Shown here: piece by piece, positions 7,255-15,880 of the stretch | Position numbering within the stretch: the first letter of the stretch is position 1 | How the letters are laid out: every line of letters begins with the position of its first letter | NCBI GenBank assembly: GCA_001817215.1 | Contig: MHHX01000007.1 | Location: 24,244-60,575, forward strand | DNA length: 36,332 nt | Direction of reading: 5' to 3' | DNA from: Candidatus Brennerbacteria bacterium RIFOXYC1_FULL_41_11 | Lineage (GTDB): Bacteria > Patescibacteriota > Minisyncoccia > UBA6257 > Brennerbacteraceae | Notes under the pieces: generated by a model | Seen by the model: the letters and a program-made list of their open reading frames with translations, nothing else | What the model was told of the DNA's origin: nothing | Database searches by the model: none | Made by a program: the position numbers and the translations under genes

Positions 7255-9434
7255 TGAAAAAAATCTTAAAAACACTTCTTTTATTTTTTACCTTGTTTTC
7301 AATGGTTTTTTCTTGGCAGGTAAGCCCCGTTTTCAGTAGAGGTGGCGTGGACAGTGAAGAGGATAAAATGCCGTGGCTGCAGGCTTTTGAAACGTGTCCT
7401 ATTGGTACGCCCACGAGTCTTTGTTTAGCAATCAAAGCCGCGGCATCGGGTTGGATATCGTATGAGAAAATAGGCGTAGCAATCGATAACGTAGAAAAAG
7501 CTATCGAGGATGTAGGAAATTTGATGAGCCTGTCGGTTTCGGACATTATCAGGGACATTATTGCTTGGATAGCTAGTCTTGTCGGCAATATAGTGAGCAA
7601 GATGATTTATTTGGCGGTGTTTTTGATGAGTCCTGATACTTTTCAATATGCGACTTTTCCTGCGGTTCAAGCCGGATTTTATGTTTCTCTGCAAATAGCT
7701 AATGCCATGTTGGCTATTGGCATGGTGATCCTGGCGAATAAATTCATTCTTGGCATGGAAAGTTACGGCAATCTAAAGAGCCTGACAAGATATTTAGTGA
7801 CTGCAATCCTGATTAATTTCAGCTTAGCTTTTGCTTCTTACGGTGTCGGCATTTCCAATTTCATGACAATTGCTTTTCTCGATGGGGCGGCTAATTTCGG
7901 CGAAAACTCGTCCGGATCTTTTAATGGGACAGCATCTTTAAGTTATGAAGAAAGACAAAATTCAATTATGGATAAATTTTCCGACACTTTCAGTCAGTTG
8001 GCCGCTGACAAGGGCGATTCTAAGGCGGATGTGGCGGCGAATATAGCCACCCTATTCACGTTCATCATTTTTTCTTTGTTTTTTATTGTACTTTTAGCGG
8101 CCATTGCAGTTTCTTTGGTTATGCGAGTGATCGGGCTTTGGGCCTTGATGATGGTTGTGCCCCTGGCAATTGCCGCAGACACTGTTTTCAGTGACATGGA
8201 TTTGCCCGGTGTTCCGATTGGCTCTGGAAATTTTAAAAAATGGAAGGATTCTTTTATAAAATATTTGAGTTTTGCGCCGATCATGGCCGGAGTGATTTTT
8301 TTCGTGTTTCTTGTTATGGGCCAGTTTGAAAAGGGTGCCTTCGCTATCAGCGAATATGATCCTAATACGAGTATGTTGATGGCAAGTTTTGGCGAAACTC
8401 TCGGACTTATTGTTGCTTTAGTTTTGCTTTATAAAGGCTACGAATTTGCCAATTCGAGTTCAAGCGCGGTGCCGAAGTTTATGGACAGTGCGGTCAAAGG
8501 AGTTATTAACTATCCTGCAAAGGCTGGACAGTCGGTGAAGAGGAGCGCGACAAAGTTTGGTTATGGCTTTGCGGATTCTGATATCGGCAGGGGTCTTCAG
8601 AGAGCGCTTATTAACGTTCCAGTCCTGTCTCGTTATAGTCAGTATCTTGGCAAAAAAGGAGTAGAGGGTGAGCGGTTAAGGAAAGAAGACGTTGATAATA
8701 TAAAGGGTCAGTATGAACATATGTATTCAATGGCGAAGAATGATAAAGAAAGACAACGAGTTATTGATAAAGCTATGTACGCCGGTTCTGGGCCGCTCTT
8801 TGGCCCATTGAAAGGGAGTTTTGATCCGGCTAAACACGGTGGTGCCTTGGAATTTCTGGGGAACAATGATGACGGCAAGGAAGCTTTGGCAAAACAAATT
8901 GCAGAAAGGTCAAAAAACACCAAGGATGTTGATTCAAGGATTGAGCGTATGCAAAACTTCGGCGCCAAGAATGGTATCAAGATTAAAATTGATGCCAATG
9001 ATGTTTATCGAGCCAACCCTGTTTTGGCTGGTGACAAAATAGGCGGTTTCGCTAGAAATATGACGCCCGAGGATCTCGCAAAACTAAACGCCGAGGTTCT
9101 GAAGCAAGTAATACCGCATGTTTCCAGTGCCTCAACTCTTAAGAATGTGGTTGACAAGGTTTCTGGTGATTCAATAAAGTCCGCCGCCATTTTTGATAAT
9201 CTTTACTCAAGAATTAATGAAAGTAACGAGTTATCCAAAACTTGGGCTAAGGACGGGACAATAACTTACTGGTTGGAACGCCAGTCGAAAGAAAATTCAC
9301 AGGCAGGGGAGATTTTGGATAAGTTGCGTACAGTTTCTGCCGAGAGTCCGAAAGAGAAGAAACCCCGTGGTACGATCTTGAACAAAAAAGAATCCGAGGA
9401 GTCTCTAAGCAGATTAGAGAATTTTGGAAAGTAA
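7254..9434 (+). CDS. TrbL/VirB6-like polytopic membrane protein with long hydrophilic C-terminus
   Basis: 726 aa; signal/TM N-terminus, multiple TM helices around residues 100-380, charged tail; TAATG overlap with upstream gene. Confidence 0.8.
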   Translation: MKKILKTLLLFFTLFSMVFSWQVSPVFSRGGVDSEEDKMPWLQAFETCPIGTPTSLCLAIKAAASGWISYEKIGVAIDNVEKAIEDVGNLMSLSVSDIIRDIIAWIASLVGNIVSKMIYLAVFLMSPDTFQYATFPAVQAGFYVSLQIANAMLAIGMVILANKFILGMESYGNLKSLTRYLVTAILINFSLAFASYGVGISNFMTIAFLDGAANFGENSSGSFNGTASLSYEERQNSIMDKFSDTFSQLAADKGDSKADVAANIATLFTFIIFSLFFIVLLAAIAVSLVMRVIGLWALMMVVPLAIAADTVFSDMDLPGVPIGSGNFKKWKDSFIKYLSFAPIMAGVIFFVFLVMGQFEKGAFAISEYDPNTSMLMASFGETLGLIVALVLLYKGYEFANSSSSAVPKFMDSAVKGVINYPAKAGQSVKRSATKFGYGFADSDIGRGLQRALINVPVLSRYSQYLGKKGVEGERLRKEDVDNIKGQYEHMYSMAKNDKERQRVIDKAMYAGSGPLFGPLKGSFDPAKHGGALEFLGNNDDGKEALAKQIAERSKNTKDVDSRIERMQNFGAKNGIKIKIDANDVYRANPVLAGDKIGGFARNMTPEDLAKLNAEVLKQVIPHVSSASTLKNVVDKVSGDSIKSAAIFDNLYSRINESNELSKTWAKDGTITYWLERQSKENSQAGEILDKLRTVSAESPKEKKPRGTILNKKESEESLSRLENFGK

Positions 9435-9446
9435 TTTTTGCAATAA

Positions 9447-10367
9447 ATGAAAGCATCATTTTTTATTGAAAAGATCGGCGTAGAGAGAATTGATCAGGCT
9501 TTCGCCGGATTAGAGAAACCATTGAAAGACATGTTTGACGGTGAGATGGGCGGCAACTTGGTGTCTAGCGTTATTGATAAATATGAGGCAGACTCATTCT
9601 TTTTACCGGATCTGATGCTGGTGATTGGGTTTTATGTTGCCTGCTTGATTAACAATCAGGAGATGGTTGATTATCTTGGTCTGATTGTGCCTGAAAAGTA
9701 TTTTCCTCAATTCATGCAAGAGCTAGAAGATAAACTCTGGTCTCCCTATGATGTTTACCTGAACAAGGCCGGTGTGGTTTACAAACAGTTGACAAAATTA
9801 ACACCGCAACCCGTAATCAGTAACGAGTTGTCAGTCGAGAAAGTTCCTCAGGGGCAAGCATTTGATAATTCAAAACAACCGGTTTCAGCGCTTTCAGTCG
9901 GAGTTCAGTCCGACAACGTTGTAGTCAACACGCCAAATTTGAGTGCCCCGACCCTCAAGGAAGTTGTGATCTCGGATCTTGCTTCGCCGAAAACAGAAAT
10001 TATTGGTGGTGTAGTGGCTCCGGCCGGACAAAAAACCATCCCACAACAAAGCAACGAATCACGTTTTGCCACCGGACAAAATTCTGGCACGGCAAGGGTG
10101 AAGTTCGATGCGCCTCGGGTCGGTCCGGAAATATTGAAGCCGACAGCATCAGAAATAAAACCTTCTTTCCAGGAGGTGAGGTTCAAAGAGCCGGAAAAAA
10201 GGCCAGAAGTCGGCGGGAATGTTTCTGCCACGGGTTCTGCCTGGCAAGGTCAAGAAGAGAAAAAAATTGAGATTCCGAAAGCTCAAGAGATCAAAAAAAC
10301 AGAGATTCAAGGAAGACAGGTAATTGACCTGACTAATTTTGGGCTATCTAAGCCGGATAGTGATTGA
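9447..10367 (+). CDS. Hypothetical T4SS-locus protein with low-complexity C-terminus ending DLTNFGLSKPDSD
   Basis: 306 aa; ordered N-terminal region then Pro/Ser/Lys-rich region. Confidence 0.75.
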   Translation: MKASFFIEKIGVERIDQAFAGLEKPLKDMFDGEMGGNLVSSVIDKYEADSFFLPDLMLVIGFYVACLINNQEMVDYLGLIVPEKYFPQFMQELEDKLWSPYDVYLNKAGVVYKQLTKLTPQPVISNELSVEKVPQGQAFDNSKQPVSALSVGVQSDNVVVNTPNLSAPTLKEVVISDLASPKTEIIGGVVAPAGQKTIPQQSNESRFATGQNSGTARVKFDAPRVGPEILKPTASEIKPSFQEVRFKEPEKRPEVGGNVSATGSAWQGQEEKKIEIPKAQEIKKTEIQGRQVIDLTNFGLSKPDSD

Positions 10368-10438
10368 AATCGTTATTGGTAAAGATTAAGCCATCTCTAA
10401 GCAAATCTCGCCATGCCGAAGCCAGAAATGGCGTAGGC

Positions 10439-10480
10439 TGGACTAATTTTGGCTTAAGCAAGCCAGACTCTGACGGATAA
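10439..10480 (+). pseudogene. Detached second copy of the C-terminal tail (WTNFGLSKPDSDG*)
   Basis: TGG ACT AAT TTT GGC TTA AGC AAG CCA GAC TCT GAC GGA TAA versus ACT AAT TTT GGG CTA TCT AAG CCG GAT AGT GAT TGA at the end of the upstream CDS. Confidence 0.75.
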
Positions 10481-10505
10481 CTAGTTTTTACGAAATTACG
10501 AATCG

Positions 10506-10530
10506 AAAGCCGCTGGAAAGCGGTTTTTTT
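10506..10530 (+). terminator. Intrinsic terminator
   Basis: AAAGCCGCT GGAA AGCGGTTTTTTT. Confidence 0.85.
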
Positions 10531-10559
10531 ATTGGATTGACTCTTTTGTGAACTATCTT

Positions 10560-10853
10560 TTATTTGGCAATTTCAAATTTTTTGTTGAGGGTTGTTTCTA
10601 GAATCTCAAGCGTAGCCAAAACAGACGGATTATTTGTTTTTCTTAGAATCAAGTTCTCTTTGAATTTTTTTAACAAGGGCGTCAAAAACTCGTCTCCCCA
10701 AGACGGAGAAAAACTCAAAACATCTTTAAAATCGAGCTCGATCATCTCTGTTTTTTTAATATCTTGCAGAAGCGACTGGCAAGCCAGGAAAGCTTCTTTG
10801 CCCGTTTGTCGGGAGATCAATGTTGTGCCGAATTTTTTCAGTTCAATCACCAT
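10560..10853 (-). CDS. STAS-like (DUF4325-type) domain protein
   Basis: 97 aa; IELDFKDVLSFSPSWGDEFLTPLLKKF resembles the DUF4325 STAS-like core; start overlaps the stop of the upstream ATPase gene (10847-10853). Confidence 0.75.
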   Translation of the reverse strand: MVIELKKFGTTLISRQTGKEAFLACQSLLQDIKKTEMIELDFKDVLSFSPSWGDEFLTPLLKKFKENLILRKTNNPSVLATLEILETTLNKKFEIAK

Positions 10854-11572
10854 GTAATTAAAGCTAAACAGCCGTTAATGCTTTCCATAACATCTTCAAT
10901 TATAAGGTTGTGGTTGCCGTTGTTTAATTTTAATTTTGCGTTTCCTGTTTCGAAAACCAGATTTATCGGATATTTTACGATGACGTGTCTGACATATTTT
11001 AAGCCGTTGCCTCTTGACTCGGGTGAGCGGCCGGAGATGATTTCTGTGAAAGCGGTTTTCAAGGCTTCGAGATGGTTTTTCAACGCTGGCCTTACTCTTT
11101 TGAGAGTCTGTAAAATTCCTAAACCACGATCCGCTAAAACAATCTGTTTTTTGTTTAGATCGTAGCCGAAGAAAATTCCCGGAATGTCCGGCCATTGTCC
11201 GAGGTTGTGGTCAAAAGAGTTGTTGCCGATCTCTCCAGCAATAGAAGTGAGCAAAGAAAACAAATCCTTGGCATTTTTATCTTTTTGCAACAGTGTTTCC
11301 ATTTTGACAAGACGAGTCTGAAAAATTGCGCTGTTTTGGCAATAAAATTTATCAGGAATTTTTTCCCGAGTCACCGCCCATTTTTTTGCGATTTTGAACA
11401 AACTGCTCGAATTTTTTTCTATCTCTTGAACATCTTTTTTCAAAATAACAAAATTCCGGCCCATTTTTTGAGCCTTGACCTCTCCTTTCTTGATTTTATT
11501 GAAGACAGCGATTCTTGAGACGCCGAGGAGCTTGGCGAACTCTGCTGTTGTGTAAAAATCTTTTTCTGGCAC
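10847..11572 (-). CDS. HTH (excisionase/MerR-like) DNA-binding domain fused to a GHKL (HATPase_c) domain
   Basis: 241 aa; N-term FYTTAEFAKLLGVSRIAVFNKIKKGEVKAQKMGRNFVILKKDV (HTH_17-like); N-box EIGNNSFDHN; G1 LADRGLGIL; G2 SPESRGNGLKYVR. Confidence 0.8.
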   Translation of the reverse strand: MPEKDFYTTAEFAKLLGVSRIAVFNKIKKGEVKAQKMGRNFVILKKDVQEIEKNSSSLFKIAKKWAVTREKIPDKFYCQNSAIFQTRLVKMETLLQKDKNAKDLFSLLTSIAGEIGNNSFDHNLGQWPDIPGIFFGYDLNKKQIVLADRGLGILQTLKRVRPALKNHLEALKTAFTEIISGRSPESRGNGLKYVRHVIVKYPINLVFETGNAKLKLNNGNHNLIIEDVMESINGCLALITW

Positions 11573-11580
11573 AGTGTTCT

Positions 11581-11635
11581 GTTAATGTGAGCATCTGATC
11601 TTAACATACGTTAATGACTATTGTCAATGGTTAAC
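11581..11635. promoter_or_regulatory. Two tandem GTTAA..TTAAC inverted repeats overlapping a minus-strand promoter (candidate operators)
   Basis: GTTAATG-..-CTTAAC (11581-11605) and GTTAATG-..-GGTTAAC (11610-11635). Minus strand: TTGACA (11627-11622), 18 nt, TAAGAT (11603-11598), upstream of the start at 11572. Confidence 0.6.
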
Positions 11636-11730
11636 AGTTATTTGATTGTGTGAGGGTGAACAATGCGTTGTATGTTTTAAGCACGGATGCTGTTTTTTGT
11701 TCGTGTATAAGCTAAAATAGGTATAAAACC

Positions 11731-11759
11731 TTGATTTTTTAGTGTTTTCGTGCTATAAT
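11731..11759 (+). promoter_or_regulatory. Sigma70-type promoter for the membrane protein pair
   Basis: TTGATT - 17 nt - TATAAT; followed by a ~95-nt leader with hairpins (GGGGtgattaaatCCCC; AGATTTTcctcAAAAAATCT) and a GGAGG SD. Confidence 0.75.
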
Positions 11760-11860
11760 ATAGGTACAGTCAAGATAGGCTGTTTTGGGGTGATTAAATC
11801 CCCATAACGTACATAAAAAAATTAAGATTTTCCTCAAAAAATCTAAGACTGGAGGCTAAA

Positions 11861-12841
11861 ATGAGTCGCAAATGGAAATGGATTGTTGGCGGAGTGGTTG
11901 CCGTAATTATTGTCGGGATTGGGATTTTTGCGGGGCTTATGCTCCCGAGATTCTACAATCCTGAAAAACCACTGCTTGCGGCTCAATCAACGCCGCAGGC
12001 TGAATCAACTCCGACTCACGCCCTGGTGTTTCCTGGTGGCGGATCGGGATTTGGGAATTCAGAAACATCTGAGAATGGACCGGCGGCATTCGTTGTCGCC
12101 ACACCAGAGCCAAGTGCGAGCAAAGATAATCAAAGCCAAAATGAGGAGGATGACAACTTTGGTTTTGTTAAACCAAAGTTTGAGTTGTCGGACTTAGGGT
12201 GGATGCTCGCCGCAGGATTCTGGTTGATCATCTGGAGAGGACTCGCATGGCTTTCGTGGTCCTGGATCTTTAACGCATTGTCAAAATTCTTTCGCAATGT
12301 CCACCTTGATAGATTGGCGGAAGCACTTGATGCACCATGGCAAATGGTCGTATCCATGACAGCGCGCGATACTCCTGGTCCTCATGTCAATGCCGGGGTA
12401 ATCGTGATTGAGGTGACCCATCTGTTGCTGACGTTTTTTGTCGGCAACCCGTTCGTGTGGGTTATCCTGATTCCAGTAGGAGTGGCTCTTGTGTTGAAAG
12501 GCTTGTCCATTGCGGCCTTAGCGCTTGGCGTTCCTATTGTCAGCGTGTTGGCTTTTCTATGGGATAAAGCTCTTCCGTGGCTGTTTCATATTGTCGGCCC
12601 TCGCTTGAAAGGCGTTGAAAAACGGTTGAGCGGGGAAAAGGACAAGAAACCAACTGATCTTGAATCGGCGGAGGCGAATCTAAGGTTGGCAGAGATTGAG
12701 GCTAGGACTATCTTGCTTCAAGACGCCATCGCTGAACGCGAAGCCGCAGTCTTACAAGGCCGGCCGATTGCTTCGTGGGCGCTTCAGGTATTGCGTCCTC
12801 TAAAACAGAAACCCCAACCACAACAACGGCAACGGCCGTAG
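11861..12841 (+). CDS. Polytopic membrane protein with Pro/Ser/Thr-rich loop and helical/Gln-rich C-terminus
   Basis: 326 aa; N-terminal TM, STPQAESTPT..., several later TM segments; strong SD (TGGAGGCTAAAATG). Confidence 0.75.
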   Translation: MSRKWKWIVGGVVAVIIVGIGIFAGLMLPRFYNPEKPLLAAQSTPQAESTPTHALVFPGGGSGFGNSETSENGPAAFVVATPEPSASKDNQSQNEEDDNFGFVKPKFELSDLGWMLAAGFWLIIWRGLAWLSWSWIFNALSKFFRNVHLDRLAEALDAPWQMVVSMTARDTPGPHVNAGVIVIEVTHLLLTFFVGNPFVWVILIPVGVALVLKGLSIAALALGVPIVSVLAFLWDKALPWLFHIVGPRLKGVEKRLSGEKDKKPTDLESAEANLRLAEIEARTILLQDAIAEREAAVLQGRPIASWALQVLRPLKQKPQPQQRQRP

Positions 12842-12847
12842 GAGTTA

Positions 12848-13543
12848 ATGATAATGAACACTATCCTGAAAACCTTGTTCTCGAATCTCGAGCCGACGAT
12901 CATTATTCTCGGCGTGGTCTTTGCGGGTCTGTGGATTGTGATGCGTGATCCGATTGGCCGCCTTCTTGATCGTATGGGTGGCAATGGCGCTAAAGCTGGA
13001 AGTGCGCTTTGGCCGATTGGTATCACGATTGCTTCGATTGTTGTCGCTATGATCGTGGCGATGCCCGAGACTTTCAAGGAGCTCGTGGCGCCGTCAATTC
13101 GAGTTGCCAATGTCGAAGCGGCTGGGTTTGAGGCATCACAGACCACGTCGGAAGTTTTCACTGCTCGTAAAGAGCGTGACGTAGCTGCCTTTAAGGCAGA
13201 GGCTGCCAAAGATAATGCTCGTGCCAGGGCTTTTGATGGCACGATCGCGGATCCTGCGCAGGCTCTTGAGCCGGCCGCGCAAGTGGCTGTCCGCGAGTGG
13301 AATGACGCTACCGATCCGAATGCCACGCCTCAATCAATGACGACCGAGAAGACCACGACGGTCATTGAGTATGATCGCGAGTGGAATTCTTCGACTAACT
13401 CGTATGAGCTGGTCGAGAAAGGCCAGACCGTGACCAAGACAGAGACCGAAAGGAAGGTCTCTCCGGGGCTGATGACCGGCCTGATCCTCGGTCTGGTCGT
13501 TGCCTTGATCGCGATCTTTGGATCGCGAGGGGGAAAGTCTTAA
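12848..13543 (+). CDS. Membrane protein with N- and C-terminal TM helices and charged middle region
   Basis: 231 aa; start may be ATG 12854; SD TAGGAGTTAATG; C-term SPGLMTGLILGLVVALIAIFGSRGGKS. Confidence 0.75.
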   Translation: MIMNTILKTLFSNLEPTIIILGVVFAGLWIVMRDPIGRLLDRMGGNGAKAGSALWPIGITIASIVVAMIVAMPETFKELVAPSIRVANVEAAGFEASQTTSEVFTARKERDVAAFKAEAAKDNARARAFDGTIADPAQALEPAAQVAVREWNDATDPNATPQSMTTEKTTTVIEYDREWNSSTNSYELVEKGQTVTKTETERKVSPGLMTGLILGLVVALIAIFGSRGGKS

Positions 13544-13560
13544 CAATCAAATAAAACAGA

Positions 13561-13593
13561 AACGCGCGACAAAGTCGCGCGTTTTCTTGTTTT
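13561..13593 (+). terminator. Intrinsic terminator closing the cassette
   Basis: AACGCGCGAC aaa GTCGCGCGTT then TTCTTGTTTTTTT. Confidence 0.9.
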
Positions 13594-13635
13594 TTTGTTG
13601 TGTTATAATTTACCTATCTTTATTATTTTAATTTT

Positions 13636-15513
13636 ATGAGCAAGCAGCCATTATTAAAACCTAAGCCGCAACTTAATAATTTTGATATCGACGAGATCGT
13701 GCTTCAGGATTGTCTTGATAAACACAATCCAAAGCTCGGGAAAACATTGGGTTTGGTTTTGGATCAAAAGGCTCGTACGGCAAAAAAACTCTGGCTCTTT
13801 CCTAACGGTAAAAAGTTCATCGTGGCCGGATCAAAAGCCCTGGGCATGGATGCTGGCGAACTGACAATGGATGACCTTGAGATGTTTGCGTCAGAAAATG
13901 TTATTGGCAATGTTAGGGAAACTTACAAAAAAATCGACAATTTTCAAAAGAGATTTTCCGGCGCTGACGGGAAGCAGTTGTTAAGGAGAATGCTTGACGC
14001 TGTCTATGACAGGAGTTTTTCCGAGGCGATTGATCTAAAAAAACTGATTGATACTGGTCAGTTTTCAGAGGATTCTTTGCTGGCATTTTTGACTGATTTT
14101 GATAATGCGGCTTATTTTGCAGTCAATCAGCCAGAAGTGCTTGACCAGATTATCAAGTCTATTGATAGCGCAGAGGCTCTTGAAATTCAAAGACAAGAAA
14201 AGCTCGTTGGGCTTAGGGAGGCTGATGATCAACACGAAGAGTCTTTGGCGTGGCTTGAAAAAGAGCGTCTGTCCAAGATTGCAGATAAGCAGCTTGAGAA
14301 AAACAGCTCGCGTGATAGTTTTGAACGTAAAAAGTTGGAAACGGAAAAAAAGATTGGGGAGGCTGATTTAGAAGGCAAGAAACAAAAAAAGATCAAAGAT
14401 GTGAGTGATAATTTTGATGTGGCAACGGAGGTTGTCCGTCAGACAAACTATAAAGTTCTTGAGGGATTAGAACTGGAAATTGAAGGGTTGGGTGAGGTTG
14501 AATCCCTACCAGAGTTAATTAAGGCCGGTGGCCAGTTTGTCGGTTCTGCTGGTCGGGCGGCTCTTAACTGGTTTGAGAGTAGATTTTCTCCGACAGTGGA
14601 TGTGTCTGTGGCCAGCCTTCCGGTTGATCCATTGAACCCTGGCGTGCCAGATAATTTTCATGATCTGAAAAATGTTCTTCAATTACAGAGGCAGGATTGG
14701 AAAAATCTTTGGAAACAGACGATCATCAAGGGGAAAATAGTGGTGGTTAAGATGAAAGCGGAAAAAGAAATTTCGTCTTTGCAGCTTGAGAAAGGAGATG
14801 CGGTTGCGGATATTAAACATCGTTATGAAGACATCGTTTCTGATTTGGAAGAGAGTCTGCGTCAAGCAGAAAGACAGCAAGGCGTGGCTGAAAAGCAGAT
14901 TGATCAAGAGATAAAAGAATTAGAAGAGGAATTTGTAACTAGAAAAAAGATTATTGAAAAAGATTTCGCTGGGCACGAGAAAGCAGAAAAGCGGAAAACA
15001 AGTGCAGATGATTATAGCGCAAAACTAAAGTTTGCTTCTGCTCTTGTAACTATTAAGAAGATGGCTGGCGCTGAGGCGATTGTTTCTGGCCGCGGTCTGG
15101 AGTCAAGGGTTCGCGTGGATAGTTTTTCCGAAACCAAAGAAAAGGTAAAAAAATGGGAAGCGAGCGTTTTTGAGTCAGAAGAAGGCCCTTCTCTCCCGTT
15201 AGCATTAAGAAATATCAATAGACTTTGGAACGAGTTTAAAAAGTTCATAGAGGGTTGGGAAGAGACTGGGTCCGACGAAGTGAAACGAGCCAGGAATCTG
15301 ATGATGACGATGAAAGTTACAAGAACAATAGATGATACGAAGAGTTGGTCGTTGATTAAACGGGCTTTTGTCGAGAACCTATCGGAGAAGATTGTGGCCG
15401 AGGCCACAGGGTCAATTTCTGGGCACGGGTGGTCTGCTATTGCTAAAGCGTCAATGATTGAAAGGGTGAAGGCGAGGATTACCCAAAGTCCAGAATTTAA
15501 GAAATTAAATTGA
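13636..15513 (+). CDS. Large coiled-coil-rich protein of unknown function
   Basis: 625 aa; long Glu/Lys/Gln-rich heptad-like stretches (e.g. DLEESLRQAERQQGVAEKQIDQEIKELEEEF). Confidence 0.8.
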   Translation: MSKQPLLKPKPQLNNFDIDEIVLQDCLDKHNPKLGKTLGLVLDQKARTAKKLWLFPNGKKFIVAGSKALGMDAGELTMDDLEMFASENVIGNVRETYKKIDNFQKRFSGADGKQLLRRMLDAVYDRSFSEAIDLKKLIDTGQFSEDSLLAFLTDFDNAAYFAVNQPEVLDQIIKSIDSAEALEIQRQEKLVGLREADDQHEESLAWLEKERLSKIADKQLEKNSSRDSFERKKLETEKKIGEADLEGKKQKKIKDVSDNFDVATEVVRQTNYKVLEGLELEIEGLGEVESLPELIKAGGQFVGSAGRAALNWFESRFSPTVDVSVASLPVDPLNPGVPDNFHDLKNVLQLQRQDWKNLWKQTIIKGKIVVVKMKAEKEISSLQLEKGDAVADIKHRYEDIVSDLEESLRQAERQQGVAEKQIDQEIKELEEEFVTRKKIIEKDFAGHEKAEKRKTSADDYSAKLKFASALVTIKKMAGAEAIVSGRGLESRVRVDSFSETKEKVKKWEASVFESEEGPSLPLALRNINRLWNEFKKFIEGWEETGSDEVKRARNLMMTMKVTRTIDDTKSWSLIKRAFVENLSEKIVAEATGSISGHGWSAIAKASMIERVKARITQSPEFKKLN

Positions 15514-15517
15514 AGCC

Positions 15518-15781
15518 ATGAATCAACAAAACGATAAAGAGGAGATTCTTAACCATTTGTTTAAATTGATCGAGAGCGGTGATCAAAAACAGATGGAAGA
15601 TTTTATTGTCGCTAATTTTAATGATTTACCAGAGGATCTGAAGAGAGATATTGTTCTCTCCTCTCTTAATCAGCAGATCGGAGGTTATCTTGAAAATAAG
15701 AAGCGGGAGGCTGAGGCAAGGGAAAATGCTTTGCTTGGTTTGGCAGATGCGCTAGAAGAGCTTGGATATGGAAATGAGTAA
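15518..15781 (+). CDS. Small acidic helical protein
   Basis: 87 aa, 4 nt after the preceding stop. Confidence 0.7.
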   Translation: MNQQNDKEEILNHLFKLIESGDQKQMEDFIVANFNDLPEDLKRDIVLSSLNQQIGGYLENKKREAEARENALLGLADALEELGYGNE

Positions 15782-15790
15782 TAGATTGGC

Positions 15791-15836
15791 AACACAAATC
15801 CCGGCCACAAAAGCCGGGATTTGTGTTGTATTTTTT
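15791..15836 (+). terminator. Intrinsic terminator, perfect 15-bp stem
   Basis: AACACAAATCCCGGC cacaaaa GCCGGGATTTGTGTT, then gtaTTTTTT. Confidence 0.9.
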
Positions 15837-15880
15837 CCTTTATGCTAAAATAAAATAGTTTTAAATTTATCAAAAGATAG

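Follow-up and report, generated by a model that had tools for sequence, protein, structure and literature searches.

We propose that two overlapping minus-strand genes of Candidatus Brennerbacteria bacterium RIFOXYC1_FULL_41_11, hereafter K and S, encode a self-contained, horizontally moving partner switch, in which K would repress its own promoter, the GHKL domain of K would phosphorylate S and the output would be delivered outside the operon at the protein level. We hold this reading to be likely, with some reserve. As judged from sequence comparisons, it is very probable that K represses itself by binding DNA and that its helix-turn-helix (HTH) domain and operator were swapped together. The window, i.e., the whole stretch of 36,332 nucleotides that was analysed, is part of a 608-kb genome (G000), and the features that matter here are as follows.

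10847..11572, minus strand: K, HTH-GHKL protein of 241 aa with a GTG start (ORF list, family matches, 81-row alignment, AlphaFold2, Foldseek)
10560..10853, minus strand: S, STAS-like (DUF4325) protein of 97 aa (ORF, Pfam, AlphaFold2, Foldseek)
11423..11557, minus strand: HTH of the toxin-antitoxin (TA) antitoxin type (HTH_17/excisionase-like), K residues 6-50 (family matches, identity to antitoxins)
10850..11359, minus strand: GHKL (Bergerat) domain, K residues 72-241 (alignment, AlphaFold2, Foldseek)
11204..11233, minus strand: N box EIGNNSFDHN, with E114 and N118 invariant (alignment)
11114..11131, minus strand: G1 box DRGLGI (alignment)
11000..11017, minus strand: G2 box SRGNGL (alignment)
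10701..10703, minus strand: codon of Ser51 of S, invariant in 79/79 and aligned with the phospho-acceptor Ser54 of CapS
11598..11627, minus strand: predicted K promoter, TTGACA (11627-11622), 18 nt, TAAGAT (11603-11598), with TG before the -10
11601..11614, no strand: candidate palindromic operator TTAACATACGTTAA, between the -35 and -10 of the K promoter

The alignments and structure models confirm K and S as real genes with HTH-GHKL and STAS anatomy, and the ORFs, family matches and alignment bear out the first-pass annotation, which had described such an overlapping pair. The stop of K and the start of S overlap by 7 nt (ACATGGTGA), K ending TGG-TGA and S beginning ATG-GTG. Of the family matches that the annotation had anticipated, two were clear: K residues 6-50 match HTH_17 (E 1.4e-5), as well as NCBIfam TIGR01764 'excise' (E 4.2e-7), and S matches DUF4325 (PF14213) above the curated cut-off (E 2.3e-6; 27.6 bits versus a cut-off of 23), a family also matched by 47 of 50 S relatives. 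The third was weak, the GHKL Pfam match of K alone lying below its cut-off (HATPase_c_5, E 0.044); detection of GHKL from single sequences is poor, and an E of 0.01 was reached by 2 of 50 K relatives. Since the Pfam match is weak, K is assigned to the GHKL proteins by its boxes in the alignment, where E114, N118, D148-x-G-x-G and RGNGLK are kept in 80-81 of 81 rows, and by its AlphaFold2 model (pLDDT 87). The latter consists of the HTH (residues 6-53), a linker helix (57-68) and a Bergerat fold that extends to residue 241, and Foldseek matched it to GyrB/ParE/Hsp90 ATPase domains (E about 1e-4). S is modelled as a STAS fold (pLDDT 94.5) with RsbS (E 0.018, TM 0.61) and SpoIIAA (TM 0.65) as best Foldseek matches, so that both expected folds are predicted and the likeness to SpoIIAB/SpoIIAA and RsbW/RsbV seen at first pass holds in anatomy. 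A STAS domain between the HTH and GHKL domains of K is absent from the alignment and the AlphaFold2 model, and the modelled 97 aa of S form one STAS fold with no second domain. A likeness of S to ADP-ribosyltransferase toxins in a PDB phmmer search (E about 0.04) was dropped, as the matches were short and fell in one stretch of 30 residues. Residues W65, Y77 and C78 of K are almost invariant (80/81) and lie outside the ATP site, in or after the linker helix; they are possibly involved in signal sensing.

GHKL/STAS switches are classically anti-sigma systems. K might hold an unlinked sigma factor that S frees, as in an anti-sigma/anti-anti-sigma pair, and besides the GHKL/STAS anatomy the genome encodes four sigma-70 region-2 proteins, one large and three small (frames of about 190-225 aa). 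However, there is no sigma gene near K-S and no match in the genome to the Pfam model HATPase_c_2, which represents the SpoIIAB/RsbW type, and a classical pair would leave the dedicated operator of K, described below, unexplained. We regard this explanation as very improbable.

A scan of 84,980 species returned 440 encoded relatives, of which the best 80 were compared in detail. S directly follows K in all 78 of these loci where the contig permits the test, which argues that the pairing is more than chance and agrees with the co-occurrence predicted at first pass; the same order was found for 28 of 29 phylum-wide matches, some from genomes shared with the 80-locus set. Nearly all of the best 80 relatives come from named Patescibacteria-type MAGs, one (L088) being labelled Methylomirabilis, and from these sequences K-S is a true Patescibacteria family. 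Its occurrence is patchy: besides G000, near-full-length K is encoded in seven of 150 related genomes, one of which (G007) has two, with a fragment in one further genome, and the GHKL part was matched in 51 of 380 genomes of the phylum. The K tree does not sort by taxon: its labels change 31 times over about 53 labelled rows, which suggests that K-S moves horizontally. A phage origin was rejected, as a search of 2.9 million viral contigs gave a single relative and phage records gave none. Plasmid relatives were partial matches only, over the HTH region. Assignment to a known defence protein was also rejected, as PADLOC matches were weak or confined to the HTH.

No recurrent neighbour of K-S was found in the 80 loci, where the commonest cluster occurs in 8/80, at scattered places. 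By family searches, the plus-strand genes around K-S encode, among others, a PrgI protein and a CD1110-family ATPase of the VirB4 type. In a genome of the same family (G003, locus L194), the PrgI homologue comes about 17 bp after the homologue of the gene at 9447-10367, while the same T4SS junction in G005 (L192) holds other, unrelated genes. Consequently, this junction of the T4SS operon is variable, and what the window holds there (10368-15880; 5.5 kb, comprising K-S and the membrane operon) is probably accessory DNA. One gene at the G005 junction is a candidate AbiE-type toxin. A second, diverged copy of the coding end of the 9447-10367 gene (...TNFGLSKPDSD stop) lies about 110 bp further on, and the two copies, at 10333-10367 and 10441-10480, are a possible trace of insertion or recombination.

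These comparisons bear on the idea that K-S, like CapKS, regulates an operon next to it or divergent from it, which in the window would be the membrane or T4SS genes. The divergent orientation and a sigma-70-like promoter of the plus-strand operon about 100 bp away are compatible with it, as is the control of a downstream operon by CapKS (PMC13373217). Nevertheless, neighbours do not recur in the 80 loci, the T4SS junction of relatives consists of 17 bp or of unrelated genes, and the operator overlaps the promoter of K, not the divergent one, all of which makes such a regulator improbable. A regulator of the T4SS in particular was rejected, given the non-recurrent neighbours, the 17-bp junction in L194 and the unrelated genes in L192. 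By comparison of these loci, the T4SS setting of K-S is incidental, and a functional link to the T4SS locus or to the divergent membrane operon, between which the first-pass annotation had placed the pair, is not borne out by the variable junction and changing neighbours.

Most K proteins carry a MerR-type HTH, for which 6amk/6ama, which we take to be BldC, were the best PDB profile matches. In the 150 bp upstream of 72 MerR-type K genes, the motif TGYATAGDTT (≤1 mismatch) is found at least once in 68 and at least twice in 60, versus 14 and one, respectively, of 581 control promoters of the same loci; shuffles yielded means of 7.7 with at least one site and 0.4 with at least two. The tandem copies share one orientation and mostly a spacing of 20–21 bp, and the last copy usually supplies a -35-like TTGCAT or TTGTAT. 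The operator is thus specific to the promoter of K itself, and one residue of the recognition helix, residue 21, covaries with it in these alignments. Where operator bases 3-4 are CA, residue 21 is Asp (31/31); where they are TA, it is Met or Gln (19/20, with one Ile); and where base 4 is G, it is Asn (6/6), leaving two single exceptions, Gln with AA and Phe with CT. The association of residue 21 with bases 3-4 amounts to 1.47 bits (z 23; next K column, z 7.7). On a tree of the GHKL domain only, independent changes of residue 21 move with the operator in 5/5 well-supported cases for Asp and 4/4 for Asn, numbers of pairs with which sign tests on these changes alone cannot attain 0.05. With its own operator and this covariation, the proposal that K could act directly on DNA gains ground, but with the publication of CapK/CapS in 2026 (PMC13373217) a 'sigma-less' GHKL/STAS switch now has a precedent.

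The window's K belongs to a clade of eight K proteins with an HTH other than MerR-type. The window's HTH is on average 75% identical to the HTHs within the clade and 25% to those of MerR-type and other K, and it is 49-64% identical to the 84-90-aa antitoxins of HTH–Fic/Doc modules; the GHKL domain of the window's K is on average 59% and up to 71% identical to that of the other, MerR-type K. The HTHs of the clade and the antitoxins of Fic/Doc modules group together in a tree with a support of 1.0, while in the GHKL tree the eight K proteins are nested among the MerR-type K. The operator differs likewise: TTAAC-N4-GTTAA occurs once in the 36-kb window (0.04 expected), at 11601–11614, where it overlaps the TAAGAT of the K promoter; this arrangement of promoter and palindrome is the same across the clade, and TTAACATATGTTAA-like palindromes with 0–2 mismatches lie upstream of K in all eight members. 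The TTAACATATGTTAA-type motif (≤2 mismatches) is present in 8 of 13 antitoxin promoters versus 10 of 925 control promoters; K promoters of the clade were themselves among these controls. As the exchanged sequences indicate, the HTH and operator of K were very probably swapped together, in possibly one to three exchanges in the clade. HTH and Fic/Doc modules with TTAACATATGTTAA are common in relatives, and the genome itself has one at about 16.2-17.1 kb of G000:C6 (L125), with an 84-aa HTH protein, a 143-aa Fic/Doc protein and a TTAACCTAGGTTAA palindrome upstream. At L158 (G436:C8), K has an HTH of yet another, winged type, the third in the family, and here too an inverted repeat of its own (19-nt arms, 89%) lies immediately upstream. 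The residue-21 recognition code and the joint swap offer sharp and cheap predictions, and the K family provides a natural set of re-targeted DNA-binding domains.

Targets beyond the operon were sought with exact tandem or near-exact palindrome patterns, by which weak single sites would be missed. The exact tandem pattern, searched in 20 other genomes, has 13 sites in ten of these, and every site lies upstream of K when the coordinates are compared with K loci by hand. In the own genome, the palindrome (≤2 mismatches) is found at the K site, at the HTH–Fic module (C6:17111) and at three other places, which were discounted as targets because their number equals that of the reversed-pattern control. 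A general regulation of Fic TA modules by K is unsupported, as the sites with ≤1 mismatch in seven clade genomes lie at K or at places unrelated to TA. Since the pattern matches fall at K and the others belong to the Fic module or to the control level, K-S appears, within the limits of the searched patterns, to regulate itself without a wider regulon.

On this basis, K would bind its own operator via its HTH and block its own promoter; it is the position of the operator that points to repression rather than activation. The GHKL domain would bind ATP and S, and K would phosphorylate S, most likely at Ser51 or else at Ser49. The Ser in SFSPSWGDE that the first-pass annotation had placed near the phosphorylated position of STAS antagonists exists; Ser51 of this SPSW stretch is invariant in all 79 S proteins, and it is aligned with Ser54 of CapS through a weak profile link (E 0.008). 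Ser49 is Ser/Thr in 76 of 79 and caps the N-terminus of helix 2; because Ser48 of VapS aligns by profile with Pro50 of S and not with Ser51, Ser49 stays the second candidate acceptor. The state of S (free, bound or phosphorylated) would alter the grip of K on the operator. Both the phosphorylation of S and the control of K are proposed by analogy with CapK/CapS. The module would set its own level, and S or K would act on a partner outside the operon by protein contact, not at target promoters. With the kinase itself apparently the DNA-binding repressor, promoter occupancy would depend directly on ATP or phosphorylation state. K-S also opens a way to study regulation in bacteria of which almost none has been cultured.

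K-S could instead be a TA-like or anti-phage, autoregulated addiction cassette with TA-type HTH and operator, in which K or released S hits a cellular target. It is a solitary two-gene operon at scattered places with a patchy distribution (51/380 genomes) and mixed taxa on its tree, pattern searches found no second target site, the HTH and operator are common to HTH-Fic/Doc TA modules, and VapKSC shows that GHKL/STAS pairs can be put to TA use (PMC13373217). Yet neither protein contains a toxin domain, there is no third gene, and PADLOC matches are weak or HTH-only; we consider such a cassette rather unlikely. Within our preferred reading of K-S as a self-contained partner switch, a TA-like or immune role fits the solitary, mobile and self-regulating character of the pair. 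Tentatively, K-S may represent a mobile, solitary kinase-STAS class, mainly of Patescibacteria, with an operator-binding kinase, an HTH/operator cassette exchanged with TA systems, itself as sole DNA target and a TA-like or immune output at the protein level.

Among described systems, K-S comes closest to CapK/CapS and VapK/VapS (Chambers et al., EMBO J 2026, PMC13373217). A literature search for DUF4325, judged by title and abstract, and for GHKL/STAS did not find the K-S arrangement, and CapKS alone was relevant. Like K and S, CapK and CapS are a GHKL kinase and a STAS protein encoded side by side. The kinase again has an N-terminal HTH, and its GHKL motifs (ELIGNVRDHSE, DSGLGIATTLKR and RGLGLK) resemble those of K; the STAS protein has a conserved Ser that aligns with that of S, where STAS helix 2 starts; and the operators lie in the pair's own promoter region. 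CapK phosphorylates the STAS Ser54 of CapS and so lifts a repressor, meaning that a STAS partner can be a repressor (PMC13373217). However, CapK is an HTH-STAS-GHKL protein of 368 aa and CapS a STAS-wHTH protein of 182 aa, whereas K lacks the STAS domain and S the wHTH. In K-S, unlike CapKS, the operator type tracks the HTH of the kinase, a reversed division of labour; CapK with its HTH deleted works normally (PMC13373217), so such a kinase may not depend on its HTH. CapKS controls its downstream operon and sits upstream of immune operons (PMC13373217), while K-S has no recurrent neighbour in 80 loci. Activation of CapK by ssDNA depends on its STAS/GHKL groove (PMC13373217); K lacks the STAS half of that groove, and its conserved Trp65 is at a different place.

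VapK/VapS also pairs a GHKL protein with a small STAS protein without a DNA-binding domain, but VapK is STAS-GHKL without HTH, while K has an HTH and no STAS, and the VapC (PIN) nuclease gene of VapKSC is missing from the K-S operon. At L041 (G071; 7429-10276, minus strand), a VapK/CapK-like GHKL protein without HTH (280 aa) precedes a DUF4325 protein, and a PIN-domain gene lies 1.3 kb downstream; the set is possibly a VapKSC relative. SpoIIAB/SpoIIAA and RsbW/RsbV share with K-S a GHKL kinase with N, G1 and G2 boxes, the E/N spacing of the N box and a single-domain STAS partner, but K has an HTH and its own operator and no linked sigma factor. The HTH-Fic/Doc TA modules of Patescibacteria share with the K proteins of the window's clade an HTH 49-64% identical and the same palindromic operator; their antitoxin, however, has 84-90 aa, ends in a short C-terminal tail and precedes a Fic/Doc gene, whereas the HTH of K is joined to a GHKL domain and followed by S. 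Likewise, most K proteins resemble the BldC/MerR DNA-binding domains in HTH type and direct-repeat operators; unlike those, they join the HTH to a GHKL domain and have a STAS partner. K-S is a variant of the GHKL/STAS switch that stands outside CapKS and VapKSC as defined.
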